Assembly (NCBI RefSeq): GCF_030253575.1 | Contig: NC_080569.1 | Location: 7,234,001-7,298,000, forward strand | Length of the DNA stretch: 64,000 nucleotides | From: Rhododendron vialii | Taxonomy: Eukaryota; Streptophyta; Magnoliopsida; Ericales; Ericaceae | Reading direction: 5' to 3' | Shown here: one piece after another, positions 21,428 through 49,776 of the stretch | How positions within the stretch are numbered: the stretch's first letter is position 1 | How the letters are laid out: the number at the start of each line of letters is the position of its first letter | Translations under genes and position numbers: made by a program | Notes under the pieces: generated by a model | Databases searched by the model: none | What the model was told of the DNA's origin: nothing | What the model saw: the letters and a program-made list of their open reading frames with translations, nothing else

Positions 21428-21436
21428 TTCTAGTTA
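21428..21436. repeat. Left 9-bp target-site duplication of the giant MULE
   Basis: TTCTAGTTA directly precedes the GGGGAAATT terminus at 21437. The identical 9-mer follows the AATTTCCCC terminus at 49767. Confidence 0.88.
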
Positions 21437-21899
21437 GGGGAAATTGCTGGACAGTGGACAAAAGGGCAAATATTGCCCAAATGATGGACCAGTTCTTGCT
21501 GAATTCATCTAGACATGAGAAGGACAAAAATAATTTCCCATACATGGAGAGGTCAACCTAGAATGACTAATATGCCCCTGATGAAAGAAACCCTAATAAG
21601 TTTCCCCATTTTGAATCCCAGCTACTGTTCCCTCATTCCATCCTTCCCTTGTACGCTGCTGCTGAAGAGAAGAGAACGGCAGGGGAGGGTTCCGTTCCAC
21701 CGAAGAAGACCGTTCTGCTGCAAGACCATTCTCCCTCACCTCTTCTTCCTCTCTCACTTTATCTCTCTGTAGCAACAGTACTCTCTCCATTCCACCGCAG
21801 AGAAGCAATCTCTTCTCCTTGACCAAGGGACATCGTACACATCTAGTACGTATATGTTTTGGGTGTTTCAATTATTTTTGCAGTTTTCTCTCTTTTCTG
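21437..21899 (+). repeat. Left terminal inverted repeat (L1)
   Basis: This matches the minus strand of 49324-49767 from the first base: GGGGAAATTGC, GGGGCAAATATTGCCCA (one G fewer here), ATGGACCAGTT, CCCATACATGGAGAGG, CAACCTAGAATGAC and then the CT-rich leader. It should contain the transposase promoter and first non-coding exon; a donor at 21846 (CTA before GTACGT) could splice to the acceptor at 23922. Confidence 0.85.
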
Positions 21900-22410
21900 T
21901 GGAAATTAACCAGACAATTTCTTTAAGCGAAAAATGCCTCTCTGAAAGATAGACTGAGGAGGTACCTATTTTGTCATGCATAACATGTGCTCGATAAATT
22001 GTTGAAGAGAAAGAAATAACCTATATTTTAGACGTAGGATATTGTGGGTGTTTCATTCTCCTATCAGCAATGGGCAATGACCTATATTTTAGCTCATTGA
22101 ATGATTGTCCCTTTATGAAGGTGTGTTGGTTTGTATGAAATATGGTTCTTGTTCAAGTTGTTAGCTTTTGGGATAAGTTTTCTCCTTTCTATAGTGATGT
22201 GAAAACAACGCAAGCAAACCATTTCGAGGGCCGTCACTCAAGTATTTTTTCCATTGACAATGTCCTAGCACCATAATTCGTTCCAACTAATGGAACAAAT
22301 TAGGAACTTTCTAAGTCTAACAATGTGCAAGGCACAATAGTATGACTGCAACAGAAAAAAACAATGTGTTGTCATCCATAATTCGTTCTAACTCATGTAA
22401 CATGTTTTTC

Positions 22411-23905
22411 CTGAAAATAAAACTGTTGCTCTTTAAGTTACCTAATGTTACTCCTTGTAAGAACTTTTGTTGCTATCTATGTAAGAATGTATGCCCTAGA
22501 CTGTTAAGGGTAGTGACCTATATTTTAATGGTTGTCCCTTTACAAAGGTGTGTTGGTCAATCTGAATCCACAATTCCACGCACAAAACCCTCCCCCCTCT
22601 CTCTCTCTGTATGTGTCATACTCTGTATACTCATAACTCCATAGTCCACAGCATTGTTACAAACACAAATTTAGAAATTTGATCGATGAAGGCTTAAGGA
22701 GAGGAGTTGGCTGCAATGGACGATTTTTGTAGCTAATGACAATTGAATTCACACCATTCTTACACACACAAATCCCGAATTTTGATCGATGAAGGCTTAA
22801 AGAGAGGAGTTGGCTGCAATGGACAATTTTTGTAGCTAACGGCAGTTGAATCCACACCATTCTTACACACACAAATGTAGAAGTTTGTAACTAATAGCAG
22901 AACCAGAATGTGGTATGTTTTTTTTGTAGCTATTGACAGTTGAATTTGAACTAGTTGAACCTACTTTTGTTTGATAGGTACTGAATCTGTATTTGGCTAT
23001 GAATCTGTATTTGAGTTTCATCTTTGATTTGCAATGATTGCTATAGTTTGCTGCACTTTGATTGATGCACTTTATTGTACCAGTTTTTAGATGCAGCTTT
23101 GTTTCCAATTTTGGAGTGTTGAAACCATTTCATTGCACAAAAAAATGAAAGGTAGTGGTGAAATCATTTCATTGCAATTTAAGCCACAAATTTTATACAC
23201 AGACACAACTTAGGACACAATAATTACTTCAGATTCAGCACTTCAAACATGGACACAACTTCATGGTAGATACTTTAGATTTCTAGCAGTTACACTCTTG
23301 TCAACGAAAAAATGATCAATAGGGTACTCATTTAGAGTGTTTCAAGAGGAAGAGGATGAGGAATGCATGGCTAGAGATGGATGGAGGGAGTTCACAGGAA
23401 GGGAGGGAAGTCACAGAAAGGGAGAGAGGGCAACGGATGGAGGCTGGTGGTGTACTCTTGCTGTTGTACTTTGTATTTTCTCATTCTTGTTGTGATAGTC
23501 ATGTAACGTGTTTTTTCCTGAAAATAAAATAGCTGCTCTTTAAGTCACCTAATGTTACTCCTTGTAAGAATTTTTGCTGCTCTCTATGTAAGAATGTATG
23601 CCCTAGACTGTTAAGGGCAGTTAATTCAATTTTAACTCACTGGTTGGCTGTCCCTTTACAAGGGTGTGTTGGTCTATATGAAATGTGGTTCTTGTTTCTT
23701 AAGGGCAGTTAACTCACTGGTTTCTTAAACTCACTGGTTCTTGTTTCTATATGAAATGTGGCTGTCCCTTTACATTTTAGGTAACATGTTTTTTCCTGGG
23801 AATAAAATAGTTGCTCTTTAAGTCACCTAATGTTACTCCTTGTAAGAACTTTTGATGCTCTCTATTTAAGAATGTATGCCCTAGACTGTTAAGAATGTAT
23901 GCTCT
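22411..23905 (+). repeat. Subterminal repeats of the MULE
   Basis: A module of about 130-190 bp (GTTGCTCTTTAAGT...ACCTAATGTTACTCC, TATGCCCTAGACTGTTAAG, GTGTGTTGGTC) occurs at about 22411-22600, 23509-23700 and 23783-23905. It occurs again in part B at about 44645-44840 and 46101-46260, and inverted at 46497-46690. A 102-bp direct duplication (GATCGATGAAGGCTTAA at 22681 and 22783) lies between. Such repeats may be transposase-binding or replication-slippage products; their role is not shown by the sequence. Confidence 0.7.
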
Positions 23906-23924
23906 ATATTTTGTCTTTTTAGGT

Positions 23925-26269
23925 ATGGAGAATAGGGAAAATAAAACATTGACAAGTTTTTGCTATTGGGGCGGAGAACGGAAGGTAAATGCCAATGGCA
24001 CCTTCTTGTACAACGGTGGGATGTGTGTAGCAGTTCTACTTAAGGAAGGAAGTCAACTCAATGAGTTACGTGAGAAGGTTTGTGGTGCCCTTCACATTAA
24101 TTTCGAAGGTAAAATGTTTTTCTACAACACGAAGAGGGATAAGACGAAGTATGTAACATTGAATGACGACAATGGTGTTGCAATGTTGTTCCACTTGAAC
24201 GAAGATGATGTCGACTTATTTGTAGAAGATTTAGGCCAGAATAATGACCCTATCCACAATACCGCTTACAATTCTACAAGGTTAGATGAGATGTTTCATT
24301 TTAATTTATAGTTATTATTTATCTGTGTGCATTTGAATAACCATATATATTTTATTTTGTTAGGGAATCGATGGTCACTGACAATAGTAGCTCGCCTGGA
24401 GGAATACTGGCAATACCTTCTCCCAGTCAGGTGACCAATAGTTGTAGCCAAGAGATGGGGTTGGTGCCATACTTGCCGGACAATGCAAATGAGATTTTAA
24501 CTGGGAAGGGTCAACTATTTGAAAGCCCCGACCTTTTCAAGCAATCAGTGTTACTATTTGCTGCATCCAACAAGTTCAGCTTCACTTATTTGGATAATAG
24601 TAGAGCCTACTATCGATTGGTATGTAAAGTACCAGGGTGTCCTTGGAAGTTAACTGCAAAATGTGAAGGTTCAAGTGATTTGGTTCGTGTCATCATGTTA
24701 AGGAATGAGCACCTACACAATGCAGAAGATGCTAGTAATTATAAGTTGACCTTTCGCAGTAAACAAGTGGGGTTGCTTTTCAAAAACCGAATTGTGGACA
24801 AGCCTGAATATTTGCCGAGGGATATTTGCAAGGACTTTGAGCATGTGTTCCAATGTCGTCTGAATTACAGTCAAGGTTGGAGGGCGAAAGAAAAGGCTAA
24901 GGAAGCCATCACAGGACCTCCTTCGATGACTTTCCACCTAGTCCCATGGATGTGTCGGCGGCTTGTTGAAGCCATACCAAACACTAGGGCAATATGGACG
25001 TCAACAAATGAAGCCAAATTCAAGCAACTTTTTGTTTCTTATGGTTGCTCCATTGCAGCATTCCGATCAGGTTATCTAAGGCCAGTTTTGAAATTGGATG
25101 CATGTTTCTTGACCGGATACTATCGGGGCCACGTTCTATCGGCTAGTGCACATGATGCAGATGATGGGTTGTACCCCCTAGCATATGCCACTGTGTGTAG
25201 TGAGAATGATGAAGACTGGTTATGGTTCTTGGTTAATCTTAAGGAAGTTCTTGGAGGATGTCAAGTCGTCTTGGTCACCGATCGGAATACTTCTTTGCTC
25301 AATGGTATAATAAAGGTTTTTGGCGGGGATTGTAATGCATGGTGTCTCCGTCACCTAAAGGAAAACTTTAGCAAGTTTGCCAGCTCAAAGGGGTTGAAAG
25401 CTGAAAGACGAAACACGGCTCTAAAGGTGGTTAATGATATTGCATACGCAAGGACGGAAGACTCATTCAAGTATCATTTAGCCAAGTTGTATGGAATTTC
25501 GGAAGATCTATCAAAATGGGTGGAAGATAACAATCCAAAGCACTGGTCTAATGCTTTTTTCCCTTACAAGAGATGGGACAAGATGTACACGAACCTTGCT
25601 GAATGTTTCAATTCTTGGATATTGCCATTAAGGGATTTGGACATCATACAATTTATGACGGGACATGTGTCGAAGACCACTGAATTGTTGCTCCGTAAGC
25701 ATACCGAGGTTAGGAAATGGAAATTGCCGGTTGGCAAACAAATTGAGAAGGAAATTAAAAAGTCTCAAGAATATGCTCGGAAATTTACGCATCGAAACTC
25801 TTCGCCTACCGAGTTCATTGTCGCAAATGACACTAGAAAACTTTATGCAATCAAGCTGATCCCTCGGCATTGCAGTTGTCTTGCTTGGCAGATGTCCGGA
25901 ATTCCTTGCGCTCATGCTGCTCGTGCTATTCAAAGCTCTGGTTTTTGTATTTATGACATGGTGGATCCTTTCCTCAAAAAGGAGATGCAAATGGCGATAT
26001 ATGATAATACCATGTCCCCAGTGCCGTTGCATGACATGCCTAGTCCATCATCATTTTTGGCTGTGAACGAGCTGAATGATAATAACGTCAACAACGGTGT
26101 TTCTTGTACTGATCCTTTTTTACATCCCCCCGCTGTGAAAAGGCCGGCAGGGCGACCAAAAAAGAGAAGGATTGAGTCACAGACACAAGAAAAGGGCACA
26201 GTTTTTTGCAGCCGATGTCGCGAACCAGGGCACAACCGTAGCACATGCCAATCCGCAATACCGAGATGA
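23925..26269 (+). CDS. MULE (MuDR-family) transposase, apparently intact
   Basis: Two exons, 23925-24280 and 24364-26269, join in frame (phase 2, GT/AG) to give 753 aa without stops. Domains in order: an N-terminal PB1-like MuDR region (about 1-118); a DBD_Tnp_Mut-type region (about 167-241, with CKVPGCPWKLTAKC); and an RNase H-like MULE transposase core with the catalytic set D364 (LKLDACF), D425 (LVTDRN) and E532 (NLAECFNSW), plus the conserved WCLRH between the second D and E. Then come a SWIM zinc finger C622, C624, C634, H636, an AT-hook/NLS-like RPAGRPKKRR, and a CCHC knuckle C734, C737, H742, C747. It would cut and join MULE termini. An acceptor-like TTTTTAG sits just before the ATG, so the first exon is probably non-coding and lies in the terminal repeat. 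This is the likely autonomous activity of the element. Confidence 0.92.
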
Positions 26270-27080: not shown

Positions 27081-28898
27081 AATGTATTTCGAGTTTTCTG
27101 TTTTTGAACTCTTCTTTGTATGCTTGTATGGCTTTATAGGAAAATCTGCACCACTAGTTGATTGATGAGAAGGCTAGAGATCAGTTTGTTATTCGTTCAG
27201 GTTCAGACACTGAAGTTTTGTGGAATGATGCAAGACATTTGAAGCCTGATCCTATCTACAAACGCCAAGTGAGTTGCTATCATCCTAGTTTTGTCTTATT
27301 ATCTCAGACTTCATGAAATCTTAATGATCCACCGTGTCTCCTAGAAAACAAGTTCATCCCACAGTTAGAGGAATTGGTTGGCTGCCCTAACCATTGTTTT
27401 CCTTGTTGTAAATCTTGTTTTTTGGTTATAAACAGTGATATCGTGCATCCTTTCTTGGCTGTTTTCGACAGAAACTTTTGTGCAATGGTCCCCTCTTAGG
27501 AACTTAATTGGCTACAGTTCATATACAGGGAGCTGTTGTTTGGGCCGGTGCTAGCTTTAACTGGCTTATGCGTTATTCTCATCCCCAGGTTAATTTCCAT
27601 AATTGTTTTAGTATTCTATACTCTGCCTTTTATATTCTAGGTTTTGAATTGATGCGTACCTTTTGTGTTATTGAGTGTAGGTAAAGTTAATAGATTTCTC
27701 TCCTGGTGGGAGATTTTTGGTGACTTACAGCAGCCATGAACCAAGCAATCCTCGTGATACTCATGTAACATTTTTTTATCCTCCACTACTATTCTTTTTT
27801 TAATTTTTACAAAGAATTGTTTCCGTGAGGGACCCCTAATGTGAGTTCAAATTCTAGAGGCTGGTTATAAATATCTTCGATATGACAACTGGAAATGTGA
27901 TGAGAGATTTCAAGGGAAGTGCAAATCAGTTTGCAATTGGAGGTGCAGTAAGCAAGCGGCGTTTCCTGGTCTTTTTTCAGGTGCATTCAAAATATCATAG
28001 ATTTGTATGGATGCTTTGTGGCTATTGTTATTCATACTTGTCTCATGTATGAGTATCACTGTCATTTGCAGAAGGGGTTGGGGAAAAGATGATAAGTATT
28101 TTGCCCGAATTGGTAAAAGTGTTATCTCTGTCTATGAAACATACACCTTTACTCTTATTGACAAGAAATCCATAAAGGTTGAAAACGTTATGGACATTAG
28201 TTGGTCGCCTACTGTTCCCAATGTTGCTCTCTTTGTTCCTCAACTTGGCGGAGGAAACCAACCTGCAAGGGTGAGTCGAGCTGTTCCATTTACATATTCC
28301 CTTCTTATTTTATTTCTTTCTTTGAAAAGTGGAAGTTTATTAACTTGGCATGCTTTTCTCAGGTGAGTCTCATGAAAATCCCTACCAAAGAGGAGTTGAG
28401 GCAGAAGATTCTTTTCAGTGTTAGTGATTGCAAAATGTATTGGCAAAGCAGTGGAGAGTACCTTGCTGTGAAGGTTTACCGGTATACAAAAACTAAGAAG
28501 AGCACATACACTGCCGTTGAGCTTTTCCGCATCAATGAACGTGACATACCCATTGAGGTTTTGGAGCTAGAGAACAAAAATGACAAGATTATTGCATTTA
28601 CTTGGGAACCGAAGGGCCACAGATTCACTGTCATTCACGCCGACAACCCTAAGCCTGACATTAGTTTCTATTCCATGCGTAGCACTCATAAATCTGGCCG
28701 GGTTTCAAAGCTGACTACTGTGAAGGGAAAGCAGGCTGATGCTCTGTATTGGTCACCAACTGGATGTTTCATCTTACTTGCAGGGTTGAAGGGCTTCAAT
28801 GGACAGTTGGAGTTCTACAATGTGGATGAGCTTGAAACCATGGCAACACCTGAGCATGTCATGGCAATGGATATTGAATGGGATCCAATTGGAAGGTA
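27081..28898 (+). pseudogene. eIF3b fragment, copy 1 (intron-bearing, broken)
   Basis: Exons of translation initiation factor eIF3 subunit b follow in gene order: 27140-27268, 27529-27588, 27681-27764, about 27859-27980, 28072-28270 and 28363-28895. Recognisable peptides are FVIRSGSDTEVLWNDA, FSPGGRFLVTY, DKYFARIGKSVISVYET, CKMYWQSSGEYLAVKV and GLKGFNGQLEFYNVDELETM, all from the WD-like propeller. Lesions: TGG to TAG at 27155-27157 (the family has a Trp here), and a 4-bp duplication (AAGCAAGC near 27951) that shifts the frame before the end of exon 4. The N-terminal RRM part and the last exons are absent. Introns are kept, so it was copied as DNA and not from mRNA. It lies inside the MULE next to the transposase. 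Confidence 0.9.
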
Positions 28899-29037
28899 AT
28901 TTGTAGGAAGAATTTGGTTAGAATTATGTTCGAACTAGTGGAAGAACGGATGGTACTCGTACTAACTAGTCACAATCCACCATTTTCTCTTAAACTTGCC
29001 CACACTTGTGTCTCTCCCCTTGTATACTGGCCTGCAT

Positions 29038-32000
29038 AATGTATTTCGAGTTTTCTATTTCTAACTCTTGTTTTTATGCTTGTATGGCTTTTCAATAAAA
29101 TCTGCAGCAGTGGCTTACTGAAGAGAAGGGTAGAGAGCAGTTTGTTATTCATTATGGTTCAGACACTGAAGTTTTGTGGAATGATGCAAGACACTTGAAG
29201 GCTGATCCTGTCTACAAACGCCAACTGAGTTGCTATAATCACTTAGTTTTGTCTTCTTATCTATACTTCTGAGAAAGTTTTTGTGACTTACAACAACCAT
29301 GAACCAAGCAATCCTCCTGATACTCGTGTAAGATTTTTTTATCCTCCACTACTATTCTTTTTTTAATTTTTACAAAGAATTGTTTGCGTGAGGCACCCCT
29401 AATCTGAGTTCATATTCTAGAGGGTGGTTATAAATATCTTTGATGCGAGAACTGGAAATGTTATGAGAGATTTCAAGGGAAGTGCAAATCAGTTTGCAGT
29501 TGGAGGTGCAGTAAGCGGCGTTTCCTGGTCGATTTTCAGGTGCATTCCAAATTTCATTGATTTGTATGGATGCTTTGTGGCTATTGTTATTCATACTTGT
29601 CTCATGTATGAGTATCACTGTCATTTGCAGATGGGGTGGCGGAAAAGAGGATAAGTATTTTGCCCGAATTGGTAAAAGTGTTATCTCTGTATATGCAACA
29701 GACACCTTTACTCTTATTGACAAGAAATCCATAAAGGTTGAAAACGTTATGGACATTAGTTGGTCGCCTACTATTCCAATTCTTGCATTCTTTGTTCGTA
29801 AACTTGGAGGAGGAAACCGACTTGCAAGGGTCAGTCGAGCTGTTTCATTTCCATATTCCCTTCTTCTTGTTTTTTTCTTTCTTTGAATACTGGAAGTTTA
29901 TTAACTTGGCATGGTTTTCTTAGGTGAGTGTCCTTCAAATCCCTGGCAAAGAGGAGTTGAGGAAGAAGAATATTTTCAGTGTTAGTCATTGCAAAATGTA
30001 TTGGCAAAGCAGTGGAGAGTACCTTGCTGTGAAGGTTGACCGGTATACAACAACTACGAAGAGCACATACACTGGCATTGAGCTTTTCCGCATCAAGGAA
30101 CAGGACATACCCATTGAGGTTTTGGAGCTAGAGCAAAAAAAATGACAAGATTATTGCATTTGCTTGGGAACCAAAGGTCCACAGATTCGGTGTCATTCAC
30201 GGCGACAGCCGTAAGCCTGACATTAGTTTCTACTCCATGCGTAGCACTCATAATTCTGGCCAGGTTTCAAAGCTGACTCCTCTTAGTGGAAAGGAGGCTA
30301 ATGGTCTGTACTGGTCACCAGCTGGACGTTTCATCTTACTTGCAGTGTTGAAGGGCTTCAATGGACAGTTAGAGTTCTACAATGTCGCTGAGCTTGAAAC
30401 CATGACAACACCTGAGCATTTCATGGCAACGAATATGGAATGGGATCAAACTGAAAGGTAATTTCTAGGAACAATTTGTTTACGATTGTGTTGAAGGTGA
30501 TGAAAGTCAATTGGCAAGTTCGGGCTTGGTCAAAAACTTGCCTATGATTTGAAGTGAAAAGAAGCTTATCGGTTCCCTGCCCTAGTATGTCCTTAGCTTT
30601 CAATAAACAGTTCTCTTGAATTTGCAAAGAATCCTTGCTTTTTTTTTGACGCACATGTGGAGATAGAATATTTGTTTTATTTCTAAAATAAATTCATCTA
30701 ATTGTCTTTTTTAAGGTCATCTCCTTGTGATTTCAGGTATGTTGCAACTTCAGTTGCTTCGGTTCACGAGATGGAAAATGGTTTCAACATCTGGTCTTTT
30801 AATGGAAAGCTTCTATATCGCATACTAAAGGATCACTTCTTTCAAGTAAGATTTCAAGCTTTTGGGGGGAAAAAAAAGTGATCTGCTTGTGCAACGTTTA
30901 TCCTTTACTATGGAAAATCCTCAATGTAATTCCGGAAGCTGTGGATGAAAAATTGAGTGCCACATTGACTTTCATAGACAATCAGTCATTACTTCAAATT
31001 TTTTTATACTTTGAGTGCAGAGTGCATCTGGTCCATTTCCCCTTCTCCTTTGTCTCCCATCGGCATGGGACCGAGGTCAAGGATGGACTAGCAAAACACT
31101 CTTCTATCTCCTCTTTTTCTCCATATCTACTTCTTCTCCTAATCTTTTACGGACACCACCATACCTACACTGCCCAAACTGCAACATTGACTGTTGAGTT
31201 CGTTTTACAGATTTTCGGATTTGGAATTAATTGGGTGTATGGAAAATTTCCTTTTGTGTTGTATTGTTTCTGTCTTGGCTCTGCGTTTGTTTGCGAAATT
31301 CGCATGATTTTCTCTTTTTCATGTCCATCATTATATTTTTTTTTCCCGATCAAACGGAAATTCATGTTCATCATTATATGCACGTTAGATGTCTGATATA
31401 ATATCCTCATGTATGATTTTCGCTTCATGCTTTGTATTTCTATTCCAACATACTTGTATGAAGGGTAAACAATTGAAAACCCCCATCACTATTTGATCTA
31501 TTGGACCCGATTTCATGTTTATTCACTATAAATTAACGCGTTTTTCAACATTAGAAATGAAATTCAGTTATAGGTTGCAAAATATGTTACAAGCAACTCT
31601 TTTTTTCATCTATTCCTTCCTCCATCTTTCCTTCGCACACACACGGTGAAGAAATTGTATTTATTACATGAAACGAGACTTTACGAGGATTACAAGAGAC
31701 TTTATTTCTCTCTGCATATCAATATCATTGCAGTTCCTGTGGCGTCCAAGGCCACCATCCTTCTTGAGCCCAGAGAAGGAGGAGGAGATTGCCAAGAACT
31801 TGAAGAACCACAGCAACAAGTATGAAGCGGAGGACGTGTCGCTGCTGTTGAGCAAGCAGGACCGTGAGAAGTGGAAGATGTTGAAGGAAGAATGGGAGAG
31901 ATGGGTTTTGGAGTGGAAGCGATTACACGAAGAAGAGAAATCAGATTGCCAGTGGCTTAGGGATGGAGAAGCCCGTGACGAAGAAATGAGGCAAAGGAAG

Positions 32001-32150: not shown

Positions 32151-32261
32151 GGAATTTTGTTCATTCACCGAGATCATAAATATGTGGTGTTTATTATCTG
32201 GTGTGTTGAAAGCATTATACTGGAGCAACTTTTTCAGTTTCTGGATCCTGGATTGTTGGAT

Positions 32262-32450
32262 ACATATGTTGCCCTGTCTATGAAAATATGTAACACCATA
32301 TACACGACAAGCAGGCCAGTGAATTGTCATTTCAGCTTCTTGTTTTCTTTCTTACCCCTGACACTTGCTCTGTCAGTCTACATATGTGGTAAATTGTTTG
32401 GAAATTAAATTGCCCCTTCTGGAAAATATGTTGCCTTCTGTATGAATTTC
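32262..32450. repeat. Isolated copy of the GCCCTGTCAGG-type repeat
   Basis: This includes CACCATATACACGACAAG, CCAGTGAATTGTCATTTCAGCTTC and CTACATATGTGG, which are the landmarks of the arrays at 34.2-35.5 and 37.7-39.6 kb. It directly follows the eIF3b 3' end. Confidence 0.6.
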
Positions 32451-33889: not shown

Positions 33890-35500
33890 CTGCTTGCTTT
33901 TAAGAAATTAAGTTGCCCCGTTTATGAAAATACATGCCCCTTTTATGAAATAAAGCTGCCCCATCTGTCAAATAAAGTTGCCCCAACTGGAAAATATGTG
34001 GGCCACGTGTACGAAAATAACTTAACACAATATACACCACAAGGGGGGCCAGTGAATAATGTGGGTAAAGAAAAGGGCTATGGACTTCTCAACCAGGTGG
34101 TATTGTCATTATAGAAGACATACGGCCACATAATTAATTTTTATTTTGTAATAATTCAAACGTTCCTTTTCACAACAAGGGGGGCCCGTAAAAGTTGCTA
34201 TGTCAATTCGCTTAAGTCGCTCTGTCTTTTGAATAACGTTGCCCATACAGGGCAAGAACTTGCCCTGTATATGACCATGAGTTACAGCATAATCACGACA
34301 AGGGGGGCAGTCAAAGGTCCTTTCCTTTCCCCTTTCTGAAATAGGGCCATGACAATTGCTCTGCAATTTGGTGTGTTCAAGGTCTGCAATTTATGAGAAA
34401 TAAGGTCGGTGGCAGCTATTCAATAGGTCTCAGAGAATCTGACTACAACTCTCTTATTGGGCCCAGTGAATGGTCATTTCAGCTTATTGCTTTCTCACCC
34501 GTGACCCTTGCTCTGTCTGTCCACATATGTGGCTCCTCTTATGAGATTAAGTGGCCCTGTCAAGAAATTATGTTGCCCTGTGCATGAAAATTAGTTACAC
34601 CATATAGACGACAAGGATGGGCCAGTGAATGGTCATGTCAGCTTATTGCTTTCTTTCTCACCCGTGACCCTTGCTCTGTCACTCGGCATATGTGACTCCT
34701 CTTATGGGATTACGTGGCCCTGTCAGGAAATTATGTTGCCCTATGCATGAAAATTAGTTACACCATATAGACGACAAGGGTGGGCTAGTGAATGGCCATG
34801 TCAACTTATTGCTTTCTCACCCGTGACCCTTGCTCTGTCACTCCGCATATGTGGCTCGTTTTATGAGATTAAGGTCGGTGGCAGGTATTCAATAGGTATC
34901 AGAAAATCTTACTACAAGTCTCTTATTGGGACCAGTGAATGGTCAAATCACCATTATGTTTTCTTACCCGTGACACTTGCTCTGTCACTCCACATATAAG
35001 GCTCCTTTTATGAAATGAAGTTTCCCTGTGAGGAAAATATATTGCCTTTTGTGTGAAAAAAAGTTACACCACATACACGACATGGGGGCCCATTGAATGG
35101 TCATATCCCCATTCTATTTTCTTACCCGTGTCCCTCGCCCTGTCCATCCACATATGTGGCTTTTTTTTGAGATTAAGTTCCCCCTTTTCTGATAGGAAGA
35201 TGCCCCTTTTATGAAATTTTATTGCCCTATTTGAGAAATTAAGTTGCCCTGTCAGATAAATATGTTGCCTCTTGTCAGGAAAAAAAGTTACACCATATAC
35301 ACGACAAGGGGGCCCATTGATTTCTTAACCGTGTCCCTCGCTCTGTCGATCCACATATGTGGCTTTTTTATGAGATTAAGTTCCCCCTTTTATGATATAA
35401 AGATGCCCCTTTTATGAAATTATAAAGTTCCTTTTATGAAATTACATTGCCCTGTCAGATAAATATGTTGCCTTTTGTCAGGAAAAAAAATTAGGGAACC
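33890..35500. repeat. Degenerate tandem array (left)
   Basis: Landmarks CCCGTGACCCTTGCTCTGTC, CACATATGTGGCTC and CGACAAGGGGGGCC recur at irregular spacing of about 150-200 bp (about 34497, 34661, 34819, 34967, 35126 and 35329). Each unit is itself built of pieces of about 20-24 bp of the form TTGCCC..T.TATGAAAT. It is homologous to, but more diverged than, the regular 223-bp array at 37745-39560. Confidence 0.8.
34087..34185. repeat. Direct repeat shared with 40074-40167
   Basis: AACCAGGTGGTATTGTCATT, GGCCACATAA and TTGTAATAATTCAAACGTTC, then CTTTTCACAACAAGGGG, occur in the same order and orientation at both places, 5,987 bp apart. They bracket the region with the 436-aa ORF and both repeat arrays. 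Confidence 0.85.
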
Positions 35501-36195: not shown

Positions 36196-36196
<1 letters not shown>

Positions 36197-36287
36197 AACA
36201 AGGTAAACTAGAACCTCTCTCCATAAATTTCGAAACCCAAACCCCCAGTGTTGGAATTTCGTGGTTTTGGGTTGTGTTTCATTTTGT

Positions 36288-37571
36288 ATGATTTCTATAG
36301 TTAAGGCAATCATGGGCAAGAAACGTGGGTATCACAAGAGTTACCGAGGGGATGGCAGCCGGCCAACGATTCTCAAACCAGCAACGGGTGAGGTTGAGGA
36401 ACGGGAGGAACGGGTAGCGGAGGGAAAGAAGAAACAGAAATTAGATGAGGCCGAGAGTGCTAAGCGCGACTGGGTGAAATCAGTGAAGAAGAAGGGGGTA
36501 ACTTGTGAGCGATGGGTTCGTAAAGCCGATTTGACTGGCGACCCATTCATTGAGGTAATTAAAGCTCAAGGCCTTCACTTTTTCTTTAAACCTATTGCTG
36601 GCTTTCGTGATGGTGTAGTTCGAAATTTTTACGCAAATATGGTGTTCAATAGGGAATCAAAGCACATTACCTCTACTATTGGTTCAAAAACAATAGTCGT
36701 GAACCCTGCTGCAATAGCCACTTATATGGGCAGCGAGTACCATCGCCCACCCTCTGAAGATGTCACATACCCAAGTCAGGCATGGTTTCACCCTCTTGAG
36801 GAAATTAGGGATGCACTCACTGATAAACCTAACTCCTACACAAATGATAAGTTTGTTTCCGGTAAATTGAGACCTGCATTTCGCTTAATTAACAAGCTTG
36901 TGCACTTCAACCTCAACCCTCACGGCTCGGAACCAACTCCCTCGCTTAATGATGGAACTCTGTTGTTTGTGTTTAGCCGGTCGGAGGAGAAAGTAGATTG
37001 GGCATCTCAGATTTGGGACGTCATGGCTGATTTTAAGGACAAGGGACCGTCAAATGCCAATATTCCGTTTCCAGCCATGATAACTAAGATGTGTGAGAAA
37101 GCTGGAGTGAAAGAAGAGAAGGGGGATAATCTGGGTCATCAGGGGTGCTTTAAAGCCATTTCCAAGGTCACGGAGAGAAAAAGTTCCAAAATGTCTCGTC
37201 CTTCTTTGAAAGCTGGACCATCTCGACCCAAGGCAAAGAAGGGCGCTGAGCGAAAAGAGCAATGGAATGAAATAATAGTGAGCAACTGTGAGGCTATTCG
37301 GGCAGCTCAAGTTCGGATTGAGGCAGACCTTCGGCGGAGAAAGAGGAAAGAGGGGAAATTCATGAGGTATCTCAAGTACTGTGCTGCAAAGCTTGGGGTG
37401 TTCACCAATGAGCCATATGTCCCAACTGCGGAGGATGAGCAGCCAACCACTTCGGAGGAAGATGAGGAGGCCGCTGGGTCGACTGAGCCTCTAAGGGATG
37501 ATAGAAGGAAAGAGAAATGGGTTCGAGTGGCCTCAGAAGAGGAGGATGATGAGGAGAGTGAGAGTGAGTAG
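36288..37571 (+). CDS. Plant transposon-protein-like ORF (about 420-430 aa)
   Basis: This is an uninterrupted frame. The ATGs at 36288 and 36312 (MGKKRGYHK) are both possible; the second gives 419 aa and the better context. Features: a basic N-terminus; a central region (about residues 60-260) with RWVRKADLTG, FYANMVFNRESKHITSTIG, VVNPAAIATYMGSEYHRP, YPSQAWFHPLEEIRDAL and LINKLVHFNLNPHG; a Lys/Arg-rich coiled part; and a very acidic tail ending EEEDDEESESE. The central pattern resembles the putative plant transposon protein domain found in proteins of retrotransposon-rich plant genomes; this is from memory and uncertain. The (CT)n tract just upstream and the lack of stops suggest a recently active gene. 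It is framed by repeat arrays inside the MULE. Confidence 0.5.
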   Translation: MISIVKAIMGKKRGYHKSYRGDGSRPTILKPATGEVEEREERVAEGKKKQKLDEAESAKRDWVKSVKKKGVTCERWVRKADLTGDPFIEVIKAQGLHFFFKPIAGFRDGVVRNFYANMVFNRESKHITSTIGSKTIVVNPAAIATYMGSEYHRPPSEDVTYPSQAWFHPLEEIRDALTDKPNSYTNDKFVSGKLRPAFRLINKLVHFNLNPHGSEPTPSLNDGTLLFVFSRSEEKVDWASQIWDVMADFKDKGPSNANIPFPAMITKMCEKAGVKEEKGDNLGHQGCFKAISKVTERKSSKMSRPSLKAGPSRPKAKKGAERKEQWNEIIVSNCEAIRAAQVRIEADLRRRKRKEGKFMRYLKYCAAKLGVFTNEPYVPTAEDEQPTTSEEDEEAAGSTEPLRDDRRKEKWVRVASEEEDDEESESE

Positions 37572-37744: not shown

Positions 37745-39560
37745 ATGGCAACCACCCTCGCTCTATCGATCCACATACGTGGCTTTGTTATGAGATTAAG
37801 TTCCCCCTTTTATGATATGGAGATGCCCCTTTTATGAAATTATAAAGCTCCTTTAATGAAATAAAGTTGCCCTGTCAGGTAAATATGTTGCCTCTTGTCA
37901 GGGAAAATTTACACCATAGACACGACAAGAGGGCCCGTTGCATGGTCATATCCCCTTTAAGTTTTCTTAACCGTGTCCCTCGCTCTATCGATCCACATAT
38001 GTGGCTTTGTTATGAGATTAAGTTACCCTTTTTATGATATGGAGATGCCCCTTTTATGAAATTATAAAGCTCCTTTTATGAACTAAAGTTGCCCTGTCAG
38101 GTAAATATGTTGCCTCTTGTCAGGAAAAAACGTTACACCTTATACACGACAAAGGGGCCCATTGAATGGTCATATCCCCTTTAAGTTTTCTTAACCGTGT
38201 CCCTCGCTCTATCGATCCACATACGTGGCTTTGTTATGAGATTAAGTTACCCCTTTTATGATATGGACATGCCCCTTTTATGAAATTATAAAGCTCCTTT
38301 TATGAAATAAAGTTGCCCTGTAAGGTAAATATGTTGCCGCTTGTCAGGGAAAATTTTACACCATATACACGACAATGGGGCCCATTGAATGGTCATATCC
38401 CCTTTATGTTTTCTTAACCGTGTCCCTCACTCTATCGATCCACATATGTGGGTTGGTTATGAGATTAAGTTACCCCTTTTATGATATGGAGATGCCCCTT
38501 TTACGAAATTATAAAGCTCCTTTAATGAACTAAAGTTGCCCTGTCAGGTAAATATGTTGCCACTTGTCAGGAAAATAGTTACACCATACACACGATAAGG
38601 GGGCCCATTGAATGGTCATATCCCCTTTAAGTTTTCTTAACCGTGTCCCTCGCTCTATCGATCCACATACGTGGCTTTGTTATGAGATTAAGTTACCCCT
38701 TTTATGATATGGACATGCCCCTTTTATGAAATTATAAAGCTCCTTTTATGAACTAAAGTTGCCCTGTCAGGTAAATGTGTTGCCACTTGTCAGGAAAATA
38801 GTTACACCATACACACGATAAGGGGGCCCATTGAATGGTCATATCCCCTTTAAGTTTTCTTAACCGTGTCCCTCGCTCTATCGATCCACATACGTGGCTT
38901 TGTTATGAGATTAAGTTACCCCTTTTATGATATGGACATGCCCCTTTTATGAAATTATAAAGCTCCTTTTATGAACTAAAGTTGCCCTGTCAGGTAAATA
39001 TGTTGCCACTTGTCAGGAAAATAGTTACAGCATACACACGATAAGGGGGCCCATTGAATGGTCATATCCCCTTTAAGTTTTCTTAACCGTGTCCCTCGCT
39101 CTATCGATCCACATACGTGGCTTTGTTATGAGATTAAGTTCCCCCTTTTCTGATATGGAGATGCCCCTTTTATGAAATTATAAAGCTCCTTTTATGAAAT
39201 AAAGTTGCCCTGTAAGGTAAATATGTTGCCTCTTGTCAGGGAAAAATTTACACCATAGACACGACAAGAGGGCCCGTTGCATGGTCATATCCCCTTTATG
39301 TTTTCTTAACCGTGTCCCTCGCTCTATCGATCCACATATGTGTCTTTGTTATGAGATTAAGTTCCCCCTTTTATGATATAAAGATGCCCCTTTTATGAAA
39401 TTATAAAGCTCCTTTTATGAAATAAAGTTGCCCTGTCAGATAAATATGTTGCCTTTTGTCAGGAAAAAAAGTTACACCTTATACACGACAAGGGGGCCCA
39501 TTGAATGGTCATATCCCCTTTCTGTTTTCATATCCCCCTTTTATGAAATTAAGATGGCCC
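37745..39560. repeat. 223-bp tandem array, about 8 copies
   Basis: CCGTGTCCCTCGCTCTATCG starts near 37971, 38195, 38418, 38641, 38864, 39087 and 39310, a spacing of 223-224 bp, with partial units at the ends. Each unit contains ATCGATCCACATA.GTGGCT, CCCCTTTTATGA, TTGCCCTGTCAGGTAAATAT, ACACGA.AAGGGGGCCC and GAATGGTCATATCCCC. The CCCCTTTTATGAAAT and GCCCTGTCAGG pieces form internal sub-repeats of about 22 bp, so the array is hierarchical. Confidence 0.93.
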
Positions 39561-39657: not shown

Positions 39658-40050
39658 TTAAATTTTGTATGGTAATATATAAAACAAAACAGTATGACCA
39701 ACAAAGCTTCCATTCGTTGAATGGTAAGGCAGTATTGCATCATTGTTCCAACCCATTATACAACAACTCTTTTTTTCTCGTTCTTCTATTGAACCTTCGG
39801 CATGGACTCCTACTTTATAATATTGTGGCACCCAATGTAGATGCCCCAGCCTATAAGGTGGCACTTTCACATTGATGGAAACTTGTTTGACTTTGTACCC
39901 CACGGAAATCATGTACCATGCAGGGATGTTGTTAATGACATCAGCTCGAAACACCCTTTCAGCATCAACACATGCATTGATAGCTTCTTCTAAATCTTCC
40001 ATTACAAACTTCTGAATATATGGAAGAGTTCTGTAGATGGAATTTAACAA
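39658..40050 (-). CDS. Unrecognised 130-aa ORF
   Basis: This minus-strand frame contains VMEDLEEAINACVDAERVF, PAWYMISVGYKVKQVSINV and YRLGHLHWVPQYYKVGVHAE. I do not recognise a family. It lies between the 223-bp array and the repeat at 40074-40167, much as the 204-aa ORF lies beside the repeat at 34087-34185, so the two ORFs may come from one ancestral unit. It could be non-functional. Confidence 0.3.
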   Translation of the reverse strand: MLNSIYRTLPYIQKFVMEDLEEAINACVDAERVFRADVINNIPAWYMISVGYKVKQVSINVKVPPYRLGHLHWVPQYYKVGVHAEGSIEEREKKSCCIMGWNNDAILPYHSTNGSFVGHTVLFYILPYKI

Positions 40051-40167
40051 GTTAATGTGGGGCTAAGGACTGTTGAACCAGGTGGTATTGTCATTTCTAG
40101 AGGACATAAGGCCACATAAAATAACGTAATTTGTAATAATTCAAACGTTCCTTTTCACAACAAGGGG

Positions 40168-40889: not shown

Positions 40890-40916
40890 CTTAGAAGGAT
40901 ATCCCAAACAGTACCA

Positions 40917-43860: not shown

Positions 43861-43974
43861 GAATTCCATGTCTTTGGAATTAATGTTCCCCCTCCCATGA
43901 TTTATGAATTCTGAAAAACTGGTCCATGTGTTGGGCATATTTTTCCCCTCTTCCCACTGTCCTGCAATTCTCCC
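43840..43974 (-). repeat. Inner terminal repeat R1 (end of part A)
   Basis: Read on the minus strand from 43974: GGGAGAATTGCAGGACAGTG, then GGGGAAAAATATGCCCAA, ACATGGACCAGTTTTT and a CCTAGACAAAAATACCCC block. This parallels L1 and R2 over about 135 bp, then similarity ends. Confidence 0.8.
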
Positions 43975-43987
43975 AAAACTTTTTTTT

Positions 43988-44518
43988 GGGGAAATTACCG
44001 GACAGTGGTCCATGGGGCAAACAATGCCCAAGTGATGGAGTAGTTTTGAGGAAATTCATGTAAATATGGGAAGGAGAAAAGTATTTCCCAATACATGTAA
44101 AGGTCACATGAAAAGACTATGAAGCCCCTCATCAAAAAAACACTAAACCTCAAATCCACCCATCCATCGTTCTCATTCATTTGCCCCCAATTCCCACACG
44201 GCTCTGAACGGGACGACCGACTGGAAGTGAATAACAAGAGGTAGGGTTTCTTGGGTTTCTTCTGTTTCTTTCCTCCTCTCGACCTCTTCTCCTTCACCTC
44301 TTCTTCCTCTCTGACTTCATCTCTCTATGGTACAGTACTCTTTCCATTCCACGAAAGAAGAAGCAAGATCTTGTCCTCCAAACGGAAAACGTACGCATCT
44401 GGTAAGGAATGTTTTGGATTGGGTGTTTCAATTTTTTTGCAGTTTTCTCTATTTTCTCTTCTCTCATTTCGTCTATGTGTCTTTGTTTGTACGCAAATTG
44501 GTTTTTTTCATTGTCTGA
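43988..44518 (+). repeat. Inner terminal repeat L2 (start of part B)
   Basis: This starts GGGGAAATTACCGGACAGTG at 43988, 13 bases after R1. It matches the minus strand of 49258-49767 over about 500 bp, including TTTCGTC.ATGTGTCT.TGTTTGTA.GCAAATTGG near the inner border. Confidence 0.85.
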
Positions 44519-44838
44519 GTGAGGAATAGAAGGGGCAATATTGAGACTTGCCCATTAGTTCCCCCTAGGAGAAAAAGGTACTATATTGATACCAACATTT
44601 GATCCACCATTCTGTACCCCCATTGCAATGGAAGTTTGTTTTTCCAGAAAATATAATAGTTGCTCTTTAAGTCACCTAATGTTTCTCCTTGTAAGAAGTG
44701 TTGTTGCTCTCTATGTAAGAAAGTACGCCCTAGACTGTTAAGGGCAGTGACCCATGTTTTTAACTCACTGAATGGCTGTGCCTTTACCCTTCTGTGTTGG
44801 TCAGTATGAAATGTGGTTCCTTTTTAAGTTATGTAACA

Positions 44839-44868
44839 CTAGCGAATGCCCGTGCCTGAAGGCACGGG
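44839..44868 (-). mobile_element. Helitron 3' terminus inside the MULE
   Basis: Read on the minus strand: hairpin CCCGTGCC TTCA GGCACGGG, then CATTCG and CTAG, then T. It interrupts the MULE subterminal repeat after GTTATGTAACA. The Helitron body would extend right, at most to about 45785, where MULE-like sequence resumes (GCTCACTGAATGATTGTCCC). The 5' end was not resolved. Confidence 0.7.
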
Positions 44869-45791
44869 TCAACGTGACGTAATATTGCTTCAATTGACAA
44901 AGCCAACTAATAATATCAATTACTAAATTATGATCAATGAATCAAATATAAATAATAAATTCAACAAATCAAATTCTCCATTAAATTTAACATGAAAAAT
45001 GAAAATGAACCACAAAACATGGGTTAGATCTTTAAAGATTTAGCTGCAAAAAGTATTCTCAAAAAGAGAGAGACTAAATGCACATAAGTGAAAATGTCAT
45101 GAACATGTATTTTTTGCTCCCTTACACTGAGGTTGCTTTCTTTTTCCGTTGTACACTATTTATGTTCTAGCAAATTTTCCGGTACCCAAAAACAATCAAG
45201 CCCTAAGATCTGATCTTATGCCTAGATAACTACATAATACACAAAGGTGTCCAAATAGGAGATAGTTAGGCACAATAGTTGGCCCATATTTCAGGTTCCA
45301 AACTTGAGGTGCATGTAAACTTGTCCAGTAACTAAGGAGCCATTTGCCTTCTCCGGTTTTGTAAACACCACAAAAACCTCATTTTCCTTTACTTTCATCC
45401 GCGTTTAGCTTAAGAGTTCTTGCACCAAGAGGATACCATTTAAGTAACATAGGAGAAGTAGCAAGAGGATTTGGGGGAGGGGGAATTTAAATGCGTCAAC
45501 ACATTTAGATTTGTAAGACTCAATTTTTCTACAACTATTTGGAACATTGGAATCAATTTTATCAAAAAAATTCCTATTTCTATCTTTCGAAATCTTCCAT
45601 AGGGTAATTGGACAGAGAATACACCAAGGAAATACACTTAGGTACTTTCCTATGCATCCAAGTTGTGTGGGGTATTCAAGTCACTCAATCCTATAGAATT
45701 GCTCACACCATTCCTCTGCACCTGTATCGATATAAGGTGAAGTATCCATTTTTAGCTAACAATCATTCAGTGAGCTTTGTTACAATCATTT

Positions 45792-46440
45792 AGCTCACTG
45801 AATGATTGTCCCTTTACGAAGGTGTGTTGGTTTGTATGAAATATGGTTCTTGTTCAAGTTGTTAGCTTTTGGGATAAGTTTTCTCCTTTCTATAGTGATG
45901 TGAAAACAACGCAAGCAAACCATTTTGAGGGCCTTCACTCAAGTATTTTTTCCATTGACAATGTCCTAGCACCATAATTTGTTCCAACTAATGGAACAAA
46001 TTAGGAACTTTCTAAGTCTAACAATGTGCAAGGCACAATAGTATGACTGCAACAGAAAAAAACAATGTGTTGTCATCCATAATTTGTTCTAACTCATGTA
46101 ACATGTTTTTCCTGAAAATAAAACTGTTGCTCTTTAAGTTACCTAATGTTACTCCTTGTAAGAACTTTTGTTGCTATCTATGTAAGAATGTATGCCCTAG
46201 ACTGTTAAGGGCAGTGACCTATATTTTAATGGTTGTCCCTTGACAAAGGTGTGTTGGTCAATCTGAATCCACAATTCCACTCACAAAACCCTCCCCCTTC
46301 TCTCTCTCTCTGTCTGTGTCATACTCCGTATACTCATAACTCCACAGTCCACAGCATTGTTACAAACACAAATTTAGAATTTTGATCGATGAAGGCTTAA
46401 GGAGAGGAGTTGGCTGCAATGGCTACTTATGTAGTATTGG
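45792..46440 (+). repeat. 650-bp near-identical copy of 22084-22720
   Basis: From GCTCA.TGAATGATTGTCCC through AGGAGAGGAGTTGGCTGCAATGG, both segments agree with only scattered substitutions. Parts A and B of the MULE therefore share recent subterminal sequence as well as TIRs. Confidence 0.9.
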
Positions 46441-46496
46441 ACGTTTCGCAAGGAAATTTCTGCAGAGTTGAAGTTTTTACATGAATTAAAGAAAGA

Positions 46497-46690
46497 AGAA
46501 CCACATTTCATATAGACCAATACACCCTTGTAAAGGGACAGCCAACTAGTGAGTTAAAATTGAATTAACTGCCCTTAACAGTCTAGGGCATACATTCTTA
46601 AATAGAGAGCAACAAAAATTCTTACAAGGAGTAACATTAGGTAACTTAAAGAGCAACTATAATATTTTTAGGAAAAAAACATTTTACATA
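46497..46690 (-). repeat. Inverted copy of the subterminal module
   Basis: This is the reverse complement of the module at 23509-23700 (GGGCATACATTCTTA, CTTACAAGGAGTAACATTAG). It marks the start of the right arm of part B, which is then interrupted by the LTR at 46797. Confidence 0.8.
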
Positions 46691-46697
46691 ACTTAGC

Positions 46698-48289
46698 ACA
46701 TAGATTCAATTTCCTAAGCTCTGAGGGTACGTGTGTGAGTCATTGCTAACCGTGCATCTCATTGTCCTAACGTATTGCTCTGATACCACAAAACTCTGTA
46801 ACGACCCTAACCCGACCTTAGGGGTTAAGCCAAAACAAAGCGCCGATGGAAATCCCACCAAGGCCATATCAAGTAACAAACCTTATAAGCAATGACAAAG
46901 GAACAAAATATATATTCAGCGGAAACAAAACATATATTACCATATCGAACATCACAGGTTATATACATGGTTTTCCTTGTCAACCACTCAGAGCTGTGCC
47001 TTCTACATATCTTACAAGATTCAACTACAAACAAACAAGCCTCTAAAGTAGAGCTTCAATATCTACAACAAAAGTAAAGGTCTAATATTTACAGCCTATC
47101 CACACAAAAGGGTCCATGTCAACCCTTTAATCTTCGCATCCTGAAAGGTGGAGAAAAATACATAAGCTAATGCTCGTATGAGTAACCAATACATAATTTA
47201 CATGCTTTCCATGGAAATGATAAAACATTTCATAGAGATTTCAAACATAGAAGCATAGCCTTTATAAAGCACATTCCCCATAGTTGGTGTATCTACCAGG
47301 TGTCCCCGGTAGTGGATAAGCTTCGACGTCTTAGCATTACCCCTAGCGTATAAGTGTCACATAGTAGGAATGTCTTTCTAGATAGGAAAACATAGCCACC
47401 TTTCATTTATTTCCATGGAATTCAACTCAAAGTACAAAACATGTAGAACAAGCTTTGAATTGAAAAACTTGCATAGAAGCATGTAATTTAGGTATTAAGT
47501 CACTCACCTCGATTCACGTGTCACACCAACCTCCTAGAAAATTAGGCAACAAAACCATGATTAGAAGATGCTAAATAAGCCTATCTTTAATGAACATAAG
47601 GTCCTAGAGTGTAAGATATGAAGTTAGACAACCAATTTCAAGAAATAATTTCAGAATCTGCAATTTCATCAACTTCAACTTAAAATCTGACTTTGCACGG
47701 AAATAACTAAGGTACAAACTCCACATACTTTTTAAGGTCTATGAATCTAGTTTCAAAATCAGAAAACGGTTTGTAATTTCATCGCTCGAGCTAAAAATTA
47801 TGGCCGTTTCCCCAACATGTGTCGGCACAGACTGCACAATTCCGAAAATGAGTGATGCTAGGTTAAGAATTTCTATAGAGCTCAATACTTCGAACTTGAT
47901 CCTGAAATTTTTACCATAGATAGAAGACTCATAGAGGAACTCTCAGTAAAATTCTCAGAAATTTAAGAACTTTCGAACTATCTCAATAAAATTCCCCAAA
48001 ATCAGACAAACATGAATTTTCCAATTCTCCAGAATTCTAAACCAAGTAATTTCTGTTCTAAACTACTTTAACTACACAAAATCCAAACATTCAGTAGGGC
48101 TTTCATGAGTTCTTCAACTCCCAATTCCAACTAAACTTGAAATCAATCTACTAGAGGAGCAAGGAATATGAATTTCACACTAAGAACTTGGAATTCATAC
48201 CTACTTGAATTTCAATCAACAAAGCTAGGATTTTTTTCCTTCTAGCTTGGTTTTCCCTTTCCTCTTTCTCCTCTTCCTGTTCCTATTTG

Positions 48290-48333
<44 letters not shown>

Positions 48334-48549
48334 AGATGAATGAAGCGGTGAAATTCTCAGGAGGAATACACGTACGTCTTTTTCCTTTTCTTTTTCTCTT
48401 CTTAGGAAAATTATCAAGTGTGTAAGTAACCATGTGCTATATGTATTCCAACCTAACTTAGCAAATAAGATTAAGTCTATAACCACATAGTTAATAGAAG
48501 CACAACAATTATCCATGTATTAAGCATAATTAAAATGAGGGTTATTACA
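46698..48549 (-). mobile_element. LTR (1,753 bp) with PBS, truncated retrotransposon
   Basis: The LTR runs from TGTAACGACCCT (46797) to GGGTTATTACA (48549), with TG/CA ends. On the minus strand the LTR ends in CGTTACA, and the sequence TGGTATCAGAGCAATACG begins nine bases or so further (46788-46774). This is a primer-binding site complementary to initiator tRNA-Met. About 100 bp of internal leader remains, up to about 46698; no gag or pol is seen. So this is the 5' LTR and leader of a minus-oriented element, deleted beyond. Confidence 0.8.
48293..48331. repeat. (CT)n microsatellite in the LTR
   Basis: About 19 CT units, within the LTR 46797-48549. Confidence 0.9.
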
Positions 48550-48559
48550 AATACATACA

Positions 48560-49257
48560 AAATATTAGACATCCACCTACTTAATACCCAATTCTAGGGT
48601 TTCCTTGACCTTTTCTCCAAAAAAGTATAGGCTTTTCTTAACTTTGCATCAATCAACCAAAAAATAAAATCCATATTTGGCCAAGTTGGACGGCATGTTT
48701 GCCTCTGAACACAACTTCCAGATTATAGATAATCATCATTTCGTTGGTCAAAAACAATGCCAATGTCCATTGTTTTCCCAAAATCACACCTAGTAGTACT
48801 TATCCTTGTCCACATATTTCCTACATTCTTATCAACTGAACAACTATTGTCCTTTGGAATTAATTTGTTTTCAACTTACAAATGTTACAAACTTGGATAC
48901 ATAGGTTTGCAGATAACATAAACAAGCATTGAAACAGTAGTAATGTCATCACAACAACTTGATAGTATCAATCAAAAGTTACACTAGGGAAGAAAAGGAA
49001 ATAAATCGCATTCAACGAATGCCCATCAATGAATGGCATCACTTCTATTTGTACCAAAGCTAGTAAAGAGTTTCCATCACACTAATCCTGCGCAAAGGCC
49101 AAAGGCCAAAGGGACGTATGAGAATTGGAACAAAGAGTTAAACTTAACAGCCTCAACAGTTACACATACAGTTCATAGATCAGAGTTTTCAGAAAGGAAA
49201 AAATCTAGTGCTACAGCACACAAACAAATGACCTGAACACAATAACAAAGAGGCCAC
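48560..49257. other. MULE part B interior, unassigned
   Basis: AT-rich DNA between the LTR and the right TIR. No coding signal. Confidence 0.4.
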
Positions 49258-49767
49258 TCTCTCATACAATGAAAAAAAACCAATTTGCTTACAAACACAG
49301 ACACATGGACGAAATGAGAGAAGAGAAAAGAGAGAAAACTGCAAAAAAAATTGAAACACCCAAAATATATACGTACCAGATGCGGACGTCCCTTGGTCAA
49401 GGAGAAGAGACTGCTTCTTCTTCGGTGGAATGGAGAGAGGATTGTAGCTTACAGAGAGATGAAGTGAGAGAGGAAGAAGAGGTGAGGGAGAACGATTGTT
49501 GCAGCAAGAGACCAGAGGCGGAACCCTTTCCTGTTCTTCTCTCCTCTTCAGCAACGTACGAAGGAAGGAATGAGAGAACAGTGGGGCTGGGATTTCAAAT
49601 TGGGAAAATTTAGGGTTTCTTTCATCTGGGGCATATTGGTCATTCTAGGTTGTCCTCTCCATGTATGGGTAATTATATTTTTCCTTCCCATCACATAGAA
49701 ATTCCCAAAAACTGGTCCATGAGGTGGGCAATATTTGCCCCTCCTTCCACTGATTGGCAATTTCCCC
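49258..49767 (-). repeat. Right terminal inverted repeat (R2)
   Basis: Read on the minus strand from 49767, it matches both L1 (over about 450 bp) and L2 (over about 500 bp). It contains the same CT-rich leader and a donor (CATCTG before GTACGT). Open frames inside it are by-products of the purine-rich strand. Confidence 0.87.
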
Positions 49768-49776
49768 TTCTAGTTA
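49768..49776. repeat. Right 9-bp target-site duplication of the giant MULE
   Basis: TTCTAGTTA, identical to 21428-21436. Host sequence resumes with ACTAACGCTTTGGG. Confidence 0.88.

Follow-up and report, generated by a model that had tools for sequence, protein, structure and literature searches.

Introduction

In Arabidopsis, two VANDAL21 Mutator-like elements (MULEs) lie about 200 bp apart and somatic structural variants have been attributed to alternative transposition of this pair (PMC12312487). A survey of MULEs with multiple terminal inverted repeats (TIRs) allowed at most 20 kb between the external TIRs (Ferguson & Jiang 2012, PMC3310237), and the 8.2-kb element Abermu was described as far exceeding Hop, Os3378, MuDR, Jittery, and Mu13 in size (PMC9168764). 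In this study, we describe a unit of 28.3 kb, longer than the limit of that survey, in a stretch of 64,000 nucleotides from Rhododendron vialii (NC_080569.1, positions 7,234,001 to 7,298,000 of the forward strand, assembly GCF_030253575.1), which will be called the window. We think it somewhat probable that this unit is a composite Mutator-like transposon, in which two adjacent MULEs, A and B, moved together on their outermost ends. No composite MULE of this kind was found in the open-access literature, and no paper on Rhododendron MULEs was among the matches listed there. If the composite reading is true, the unit would suggest that MULEs, by passing over inner ends, can take along their neighbors and several kilobases of the host's DNA, which would provide a route for moving large pieces of genes.

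The outer ends and the target site duplication

The 9-bp sequence TTCTAGTTA is present twice in the whole window when both strands are checked, and the two copies abut the outer ends at 21437 and 49767 from outside (Table 1). The outer TIRs, L1 and R2, start with GGGGAAATTGC and are identical at 383 of 468 aligned columns (82%, E 4e-123). The sequences flanking L1 and R2 match at 9/9 positions when a length of 9 is compared and at 2/8, 4/10, and 2/11 positions at lengths of 8, 10, and 11, and L1 and R2 are the only two of the four family ends described here that have a flanking 9-mer in common. When pairs of 9-mers were drawn randomly from the window, 56 of 3,000,000 were identical. Because the duplication is exactly 9 bp at both termini and random identity is so rare, L1 and R2 were almost certainly inserted jointly. 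The unit thus has both a target duplication, in the range of 9-11 bp, outside its termini and the long TIRs by which a MULE is recognized. The original prediction for this DNA had proposed a Mutator-like unit with a perfect 9-bp target duplication, outer inverted repeats of about 450 bp, and outermost ends that were used together in one transposition, and the duplication, the repeats, and the transposase domains described below bear this out.

Two inner ends lie back to back

The unit contains another two ends of its family, a right end (R1) terminating at 43974 and a left end (L2) beginning at 43988, with 13 bp between them. The sequence near 43980 consists of CACTGTCCTGCAATTCTCCC, AAAACTTTTTTTT, and GGGGAAATTACCGGACAGTGG in succession, the first part belonging to the right end and the last part to the left end. 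The order of the ends is L1-R1-13 bp-L2-R2, which delimits A (21437-43974, 22,538 bp) and B (43988-49767, 5,780 bp) in a total of 28,331 bp. Two hidden Markov models (HMMs) were built from the four ends and the window was searched with nhmmer with the filters off and E values up to 10. The four ends were recovered at E 2.1e-28 or better, a match that is given by construction, and no fifth end of the family was found in the 64 kb, the next best matches having E values of 0.027 and 0.17. In this search R1 had no candidate partner in the window except L1, and L2 had none except R2. Two adjacent elements are most strongly supported by the order L-R-L-R combined with the absence from the window of other partners for R1 and L2.

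No 9-bp duplication pairs an inner end with any other end (L1/R1 2/9, L2/R2 4/9, R1/L2 4/9). The R1/L2 flanks reach 8/11, at a length of 11 only, because both 11-bp flanks overlap the same 13-bp spacer. The absence of TTCTAGTTA from this spacer led us to reject the idea that A and B had each inserted into the present target on its own. A single nested MULE was also ruled out, as the order R1 then L2 is the wrong one and no further end was detected with nhmmer. The original prediction had treated the 28.3 kb as one element; the joint use of the outer ends stands, but a single giant MULE is unsupported because two ends of the same family, R1 and L2, abut inside the unit.

In the mechanism that we favor, A and B would once have been separate elements that came to lie at an earlier site in the same orientation and 13 bp apart. 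A transposase, which would have been A's own, would synapse the left end of A with the right end of B and bypass the two inner ends. The pair, both members being complete at the time, would then insert at the present site and create the 9-bp duplication TTCTAGTTA. Such an event would be a macrotransposition, a form of alternative transposition, for which the VANDAL21 pair of Arabidopsis offers a partial precedent (PMC12312487). Two adjacent elements with a duplication at the outermost ends only are what a composite transposon should display and both are found here, although the supposed pairs of ends are not the ones most alike.

The transposase gene

A carries what appears to be an intact transposase gene as well as two paralogous, probably accessory open reading frames (ORFs) on the opposite strand, and B is a MULE in which no transposase was found. 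The two-exon transposase model, with a GT..AG intron, encodes 753 amino acids followed by a stop (754 codons), and the spliced sequence agrees with that of its relatives across the exon junction. ORF 24341-26266 matches PF10551 (43.8 bits, cut-off 27.6), PF04434 (31.7 bits, cut-off 19.6), and PF03108 (26.5 bits, cut-off 25) in Pfam and has 46 relatives, the top-scoring of which is 94% identical and comes from Rhododendron molle. When 14 proteins were aligned, two residues of this ORF, D253 and E421, proved invariant and a third, D314, nearly so; we take these three to be the catalytic residues of MULE transposases. The reading frame looks intact and, judged from its sequence, retains the DDE residues that an autonomous MULE should have. 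The proposal that the unit carries its own transposase agrees with these MULE domains above cut-off and with the 753-amino acid model.

Opposite-strand ORF2 and ORF3

Of 85 candidates, seven are related to ORF2 at E values of 0.001 or lower, six from Rhododendron simsii and one from R. molle, in a search that admits only proteins of similar length with common short words. Four of these relatives, at two loci, lie at most seven locus tags from relatives of the unit's transposase. P0147 (Rhsim06G0095900) lies at a distance of three tags from P0004 (Rhsim06G0096200), which is related to the unit's transposase and 87% identical to it. P0149 (Rhsim13G0165400) adjoins P0014 (Rhsim13G0165500), whose relationship to that transposase is more remote (55%), and P0150 (0164900) and P0148 (0164800) are six and seven tags away from P0014. 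P0151 is not near a transposase relative (08G0133600 versus 08G0151700) and neither is P0152 of R. molle (01G0262400 versus 01G0144400), and for P0153 (05G0103500) the list contains no transposase relative on chromosome 5. At least two of four loci fell within seven genes of one of the 11 transposase relatives that have chromosome tags in 0.00014 of random draws. The draw counts the relatives in R. simsii as four loci that are independent of one another and the tags as gene order, leaves out three unplaced transposase relatives, and takes the gene total as 33,000, which is our assumption.

The C-terminal half of P0153 matches 39703-40029 of the window (minus strand) at 77%, and it is distantly paralogous to ORF2 (21% identity, E 5e-12). 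The order in P0153 is ORF2 then ORF3 and on the minus strand of the window it is ORF3 then ORF2, and because of this difference the arrangement is not simply conserved. Neither ORF2 nor ORF3 has a Pfam match at the cut-offs, the best hint for ORF2 being PF07929 (E 0.0024, below cut-off), and the predicted structure of ORF2 (mean predicted local distance difference test score 37.4) is too poor for its fold to be inferred. ORF2 is probably an accessory gene that is placed like mudrB in MuDR, an element of about 5 kb, the likeness being one of gene placement. The distance from ORF2 to the transposase gene is about 7 kb. Because the two are linked, the span from L1 to ORF2 is suggested to include structure that belongs to the family, and the eIF3b piece that intervenes may be newer.

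A speculative and rather unlikely extension is that there is an Ericaceae lineage of MULEs with a helper module of its own, consisting of ORF2 and ORF3 with dense arrays of a ~22-bp motif between and beside them. If true, this module would be VANC-like in its working and unrelated to VANC in sequence, and it would keep very large units active and mobile as a 28-kb composite. The unit itself points to an uncharacterized accessory gene family that is testable.

Alternative explanations

The similarities among the four ends weigh against the composite reading. Over 560 aligned columns the Kimura two-parameter distance is 0.23 for L1-R2, 0.39 for L2-R2, 0.42 for L1-L2, and 0.98-1.10 for the pairs that include R1, and over the outer 130 columns identity is 79% for L1-R2, 75% for L1-L2, 71% for R1-R2, 67% for L2-R1, and 66% for both L1-R1 and L2-R2. 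L1 and R2 are the closest pair by either measure and, being the most alike, would be natural partners; this suggests one original element and is the strongest point in its favor. Neither of the presumed pairs, L1-R1 or L2-R2, is close in the outer columns, R1 resembles the other ends over its outer 110-140 bp only, and B holds a 97% copy of L1-adjacent sequence that simple adjacency does not explain. Additionally, the two VANDAL21 elements face each other head to head and their target duplications were not resolved, and the accessible text reports no insertion of the two as one unit (PMC12312487). The rival reading is one autonomous MULE, from L1 to R2, that landed at this site and whose interior gained the other material, including the R1-L2 junction, by acquisition, nested insertion, and recombination before or after landing, an explanation that we consider credible though doubtful. 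The original element would have been about 9 kb (about 21437-26500 plus about 45800-49767), within the range of 2-10 kb that covers more than 95% of the coding MULEs of maize and rice once nested transposable elements are removed (PMC3903597), and there are known MULEs that have an additional one or two TIRs inside and a duplication only on the outside (PMC3310237). Among the subterminal repeats, the inverted one near R2 (46489-46700) and the one near L1 (23497-23700) are 93% alike, and the one next to L2 (44637-44836) is 85% and 83% like the R2-side and L1-side repeats, respectively. Nevertheless, two independent partial MULEs, each without its other end, would have to abut at 13 bp, as one nested element gives a left end then a right end and not the reverse. 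Moreover, because relatives of ORF2, which lies at 33 kb, are found near transposase relatives in R. simsii, the interior is not wholly foreign.

It is very unlikely that a MULE with L2 as its left and R1 as its right end integrated into an L1-R2 element in a circular or tandem-dimer form and left the R1-13 bp-L2 segment as its junction. The two ends do meet head to tail across a short spacer, and by BLAST R1 is slightly nearest to L2 (73% over 114 columns versus 70% and 69% over 144 and 140 columns), but in the outer 130 columns of the four-way alignment R1 is nearer to R2 than to L2 and there is no evidence of circular permutation. Excised circles were detected for VANDAL21 in Arabidopsis by the polymerase chain reaction, although they consisted of the spacer between the elements and not of a MULE (PMC12312487), and no report of a plant MULE circle re-integrating was found. 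That unrelated insertions happen to have matching 9-bp flanks, or that the assembly was wrongly joined, is hardly believable; nothing beyond the presence of the extra ends speaks for it, and against it stand the rarity of identical random 9-mers, the position of the match exactly at both termini, and a window that is free of any N. The composite reading, with two adjacent MULEs moved on their outermost ends, is the one that we retain.

Subterminal repeats, gene fragments, and arrays

Positions 45789-46434 repeat 22088-22732 directly at 97%, which shows a recent exchange of sequence between the two halves of the unit. A 103-bp tandem repeat is also located in the left subterminal region (22645-22887), and a partial unit of it occurs at 46350-46434.

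The fragment at 27081-30492 carries the Pfam label eIF2A, which was replaced by eIF3b on the basis of PDB matches. Its two copies are 86-90% alike in two aligned pieces, with 90% in the larger pieces. The first 76 residues of P0047, an R. vialii protein of 252 amino acids, match copy 1 at 97% and the last 180 match it at 91%. Because the first residues of P0047 match sequence that was taken as intron, a similar eIF3b fragment is probably present elsewhere in the genus. The search with the eIF3b piece, which admitted only proteins of 0.55-1.75 times the query length, returned 100 proteins, one of which is named as Rhododendron.

The motif CTTTTATGA has 27 copies, counting both strands, in 3.5 kb (two arrays and two smaller pieces) and none in the 35.7 kb outside the unit; this count shows density and not function and is expected of a tandem array. 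A Transposase_32 unit that cleanly split one array was ruled out, as the array phase is discontinuous by eye across 35493/37755. A 5' end to partner the Helitron-like 3' end at 44839 was not located; a near-identical hairpin is present in a second Helitron-like 3' end at 10124 (plus strand). All 131 ORFs of at least 60 amino acids in the unit were scanned and none gave a retrotransposon, integrase, or Helitron protein domain with an E value of 0.01 or lower, and such proteins were discarded as the source of the unit's size. Among 44 of the unit's ORFs there are weak single matches to DUF3915, DUF5445, and MerE. The original prediction was right that the unit contains gene fragments (eIF3b), arrays, and a Helitron-like end. 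Its long terminal repeat (LTR) element was not recovered in the domain search, which a non-coding or strongly decayed LTR would escape.

Table 1. Positions of the features of the unit in the window.
Feature	Position	Strand	Remarks
Left 9-bp target site duplication, TTCTAGTTA	21428..21436
L1, outer left TIR	21437..21898	+	82% vs R2
Subterminal segment	22088..22732	+	97% direct repeat with 45789-46434
~0.2-kb subterminal repeat, three copies	22403-22566, 23497-23700, 23781-23912 (within 22403..23912)	+
Transposase exon 1 (model)	23925..24280	+	GT..AG intron; spliced protein fits relatives
Transposase exon 2 (model)	24364..26269	+	DBD_Tnp_Mut, MULE, SWIM
Host gene eIF3b fragment, tandemly duplicated	27081..30492	+	Copy 1 27081-28930; copy 2 29038-30492
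eIF3b C-terminal piece	31731..31982	+	PDB eIF3b chains, E 1.5e-6
Diverged piece of array repeat	32259..32446	+
ORF2, probable accessory gene, 204 codons	33219..33830	-	7 Rhododendron relatives; start codon
108-bp repeat, 245 bp upstream of ORF2	34075..34182		86% to 40060-40167
Tandem array, ~163/203-bp units, ~22-bp sub-repeats	34195..35493	+
ORF between arrays, Pfam Transposase_32 (putative plant transposon protein)	36207..37568	+	E 4.2e-17
Tandem array, 8 copies of 223 bp	37755..39529	+	94% matches
ORF3, truncated paralogue of ORF2	39703..40002	-	77% to P0153 residues 150-260 over 39703-40029; start codon
108-bp repeat, 58 bp upstream of ORF3	40060..40167		86% to 34075-34182
R1, inner right end	43864..43974	-	Outer ~110-140 bp alone alike, ~70%
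Spacer separating inner ends, 13 bp	43975..43987
L2, inner left end	43988..44523	+	71% to R2
~0.2-kb subterminal repeat, other copies	44637-44836, 46085-46267; 46489-46700		Inverted at 46489-46700
Helitron-like 3' end	44839..44868	-	Hairpin + CTAG before T
Direct copy of 22088-22732	45789..46434	+	97%
R2, outer right TIR	49324..49767	-
Right 9-bp target site duplication, TTCTAGTTA	49768..49776
Joined flanks expected at an empty site			GGTTTCTAGTTA followed by ACTAACGC

Elsewhere in the window, ORF 58379-59539 (minus strand) has GNAT acetyltransferase domains and presumably resembles HOOKLESS1-like proteins, and we take ORF 13660-14124 (plus strand) to resemble SGF11/ataxin-7-like zinc-finger proteins. 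A tRNA-Glu gene with a CTC anticodon is located at 17511-17583 (minus strand), an 83% direct repeat flanks the unit away from its ends (17656-17845 and 50514-50698), and a self-inverted repeat of 168 bp (17941-18108, 77%) resembles a miniature inverted-repeat transposable element.

Comparison with described Mutator-like systems

Pack-MULEs resemble the unit in having a host gene fragment, here of eIF3b, between MULE TIRs. However, they are described as small and without a transposase (PMC9168764, PMC6431247), whereas the fragment in the unit is kilobases long and has a transposase gene next to it, so that the unit does not fall among them. The multiple-TIR MULEs likewise have more than two TIRs with a duplication outside the external pair and none recognized internally (PMC3310237). 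Their types 1-6 have tandem TIRs at the ends or one solo TIR, and the unit differs from these in that its inner ends are back to back at 43974/43988, distant from the outer ends. In that survey the elements of the two amplified groups in tomato measure about 1.3-1.4 kb, and the lone transposase-like tomato element is broken whereas that of the unit is apparently intact (PMC3310237).

MuDR of maize, like the unit, has two genes in opposite directions, long TIRs, and a 9-bp duplication (PMC9168764). The barley element Hvu_Abermu has GGG...CCC termini, a 9-bp duplication, and a transposase with an opposite-strand ORF, which diverges fast, and a further ORF, which are all features like those of the unit, but it has a single TIR pair and is 8.2 kb long (PMC9168764). 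At 22.5 kb, A would be exceptional if it was complete when it moved, and the unit that moved would have been smaller if the arrays, eIF3b, and the Helitron came later. VANDAL21, like the unit, is a MULE with extra genes and noncoding tandem repeats of short motifs, and has a close pair for which alternative transposition has been proposed (PMC12312487, PMC5735166, PMC10398659). It differs in the head-to-head arrangement of the Arabidopsis pair, and the unit in turn in carrying ORF2 and ORF3, which match no Pfam family at the cut-offs.

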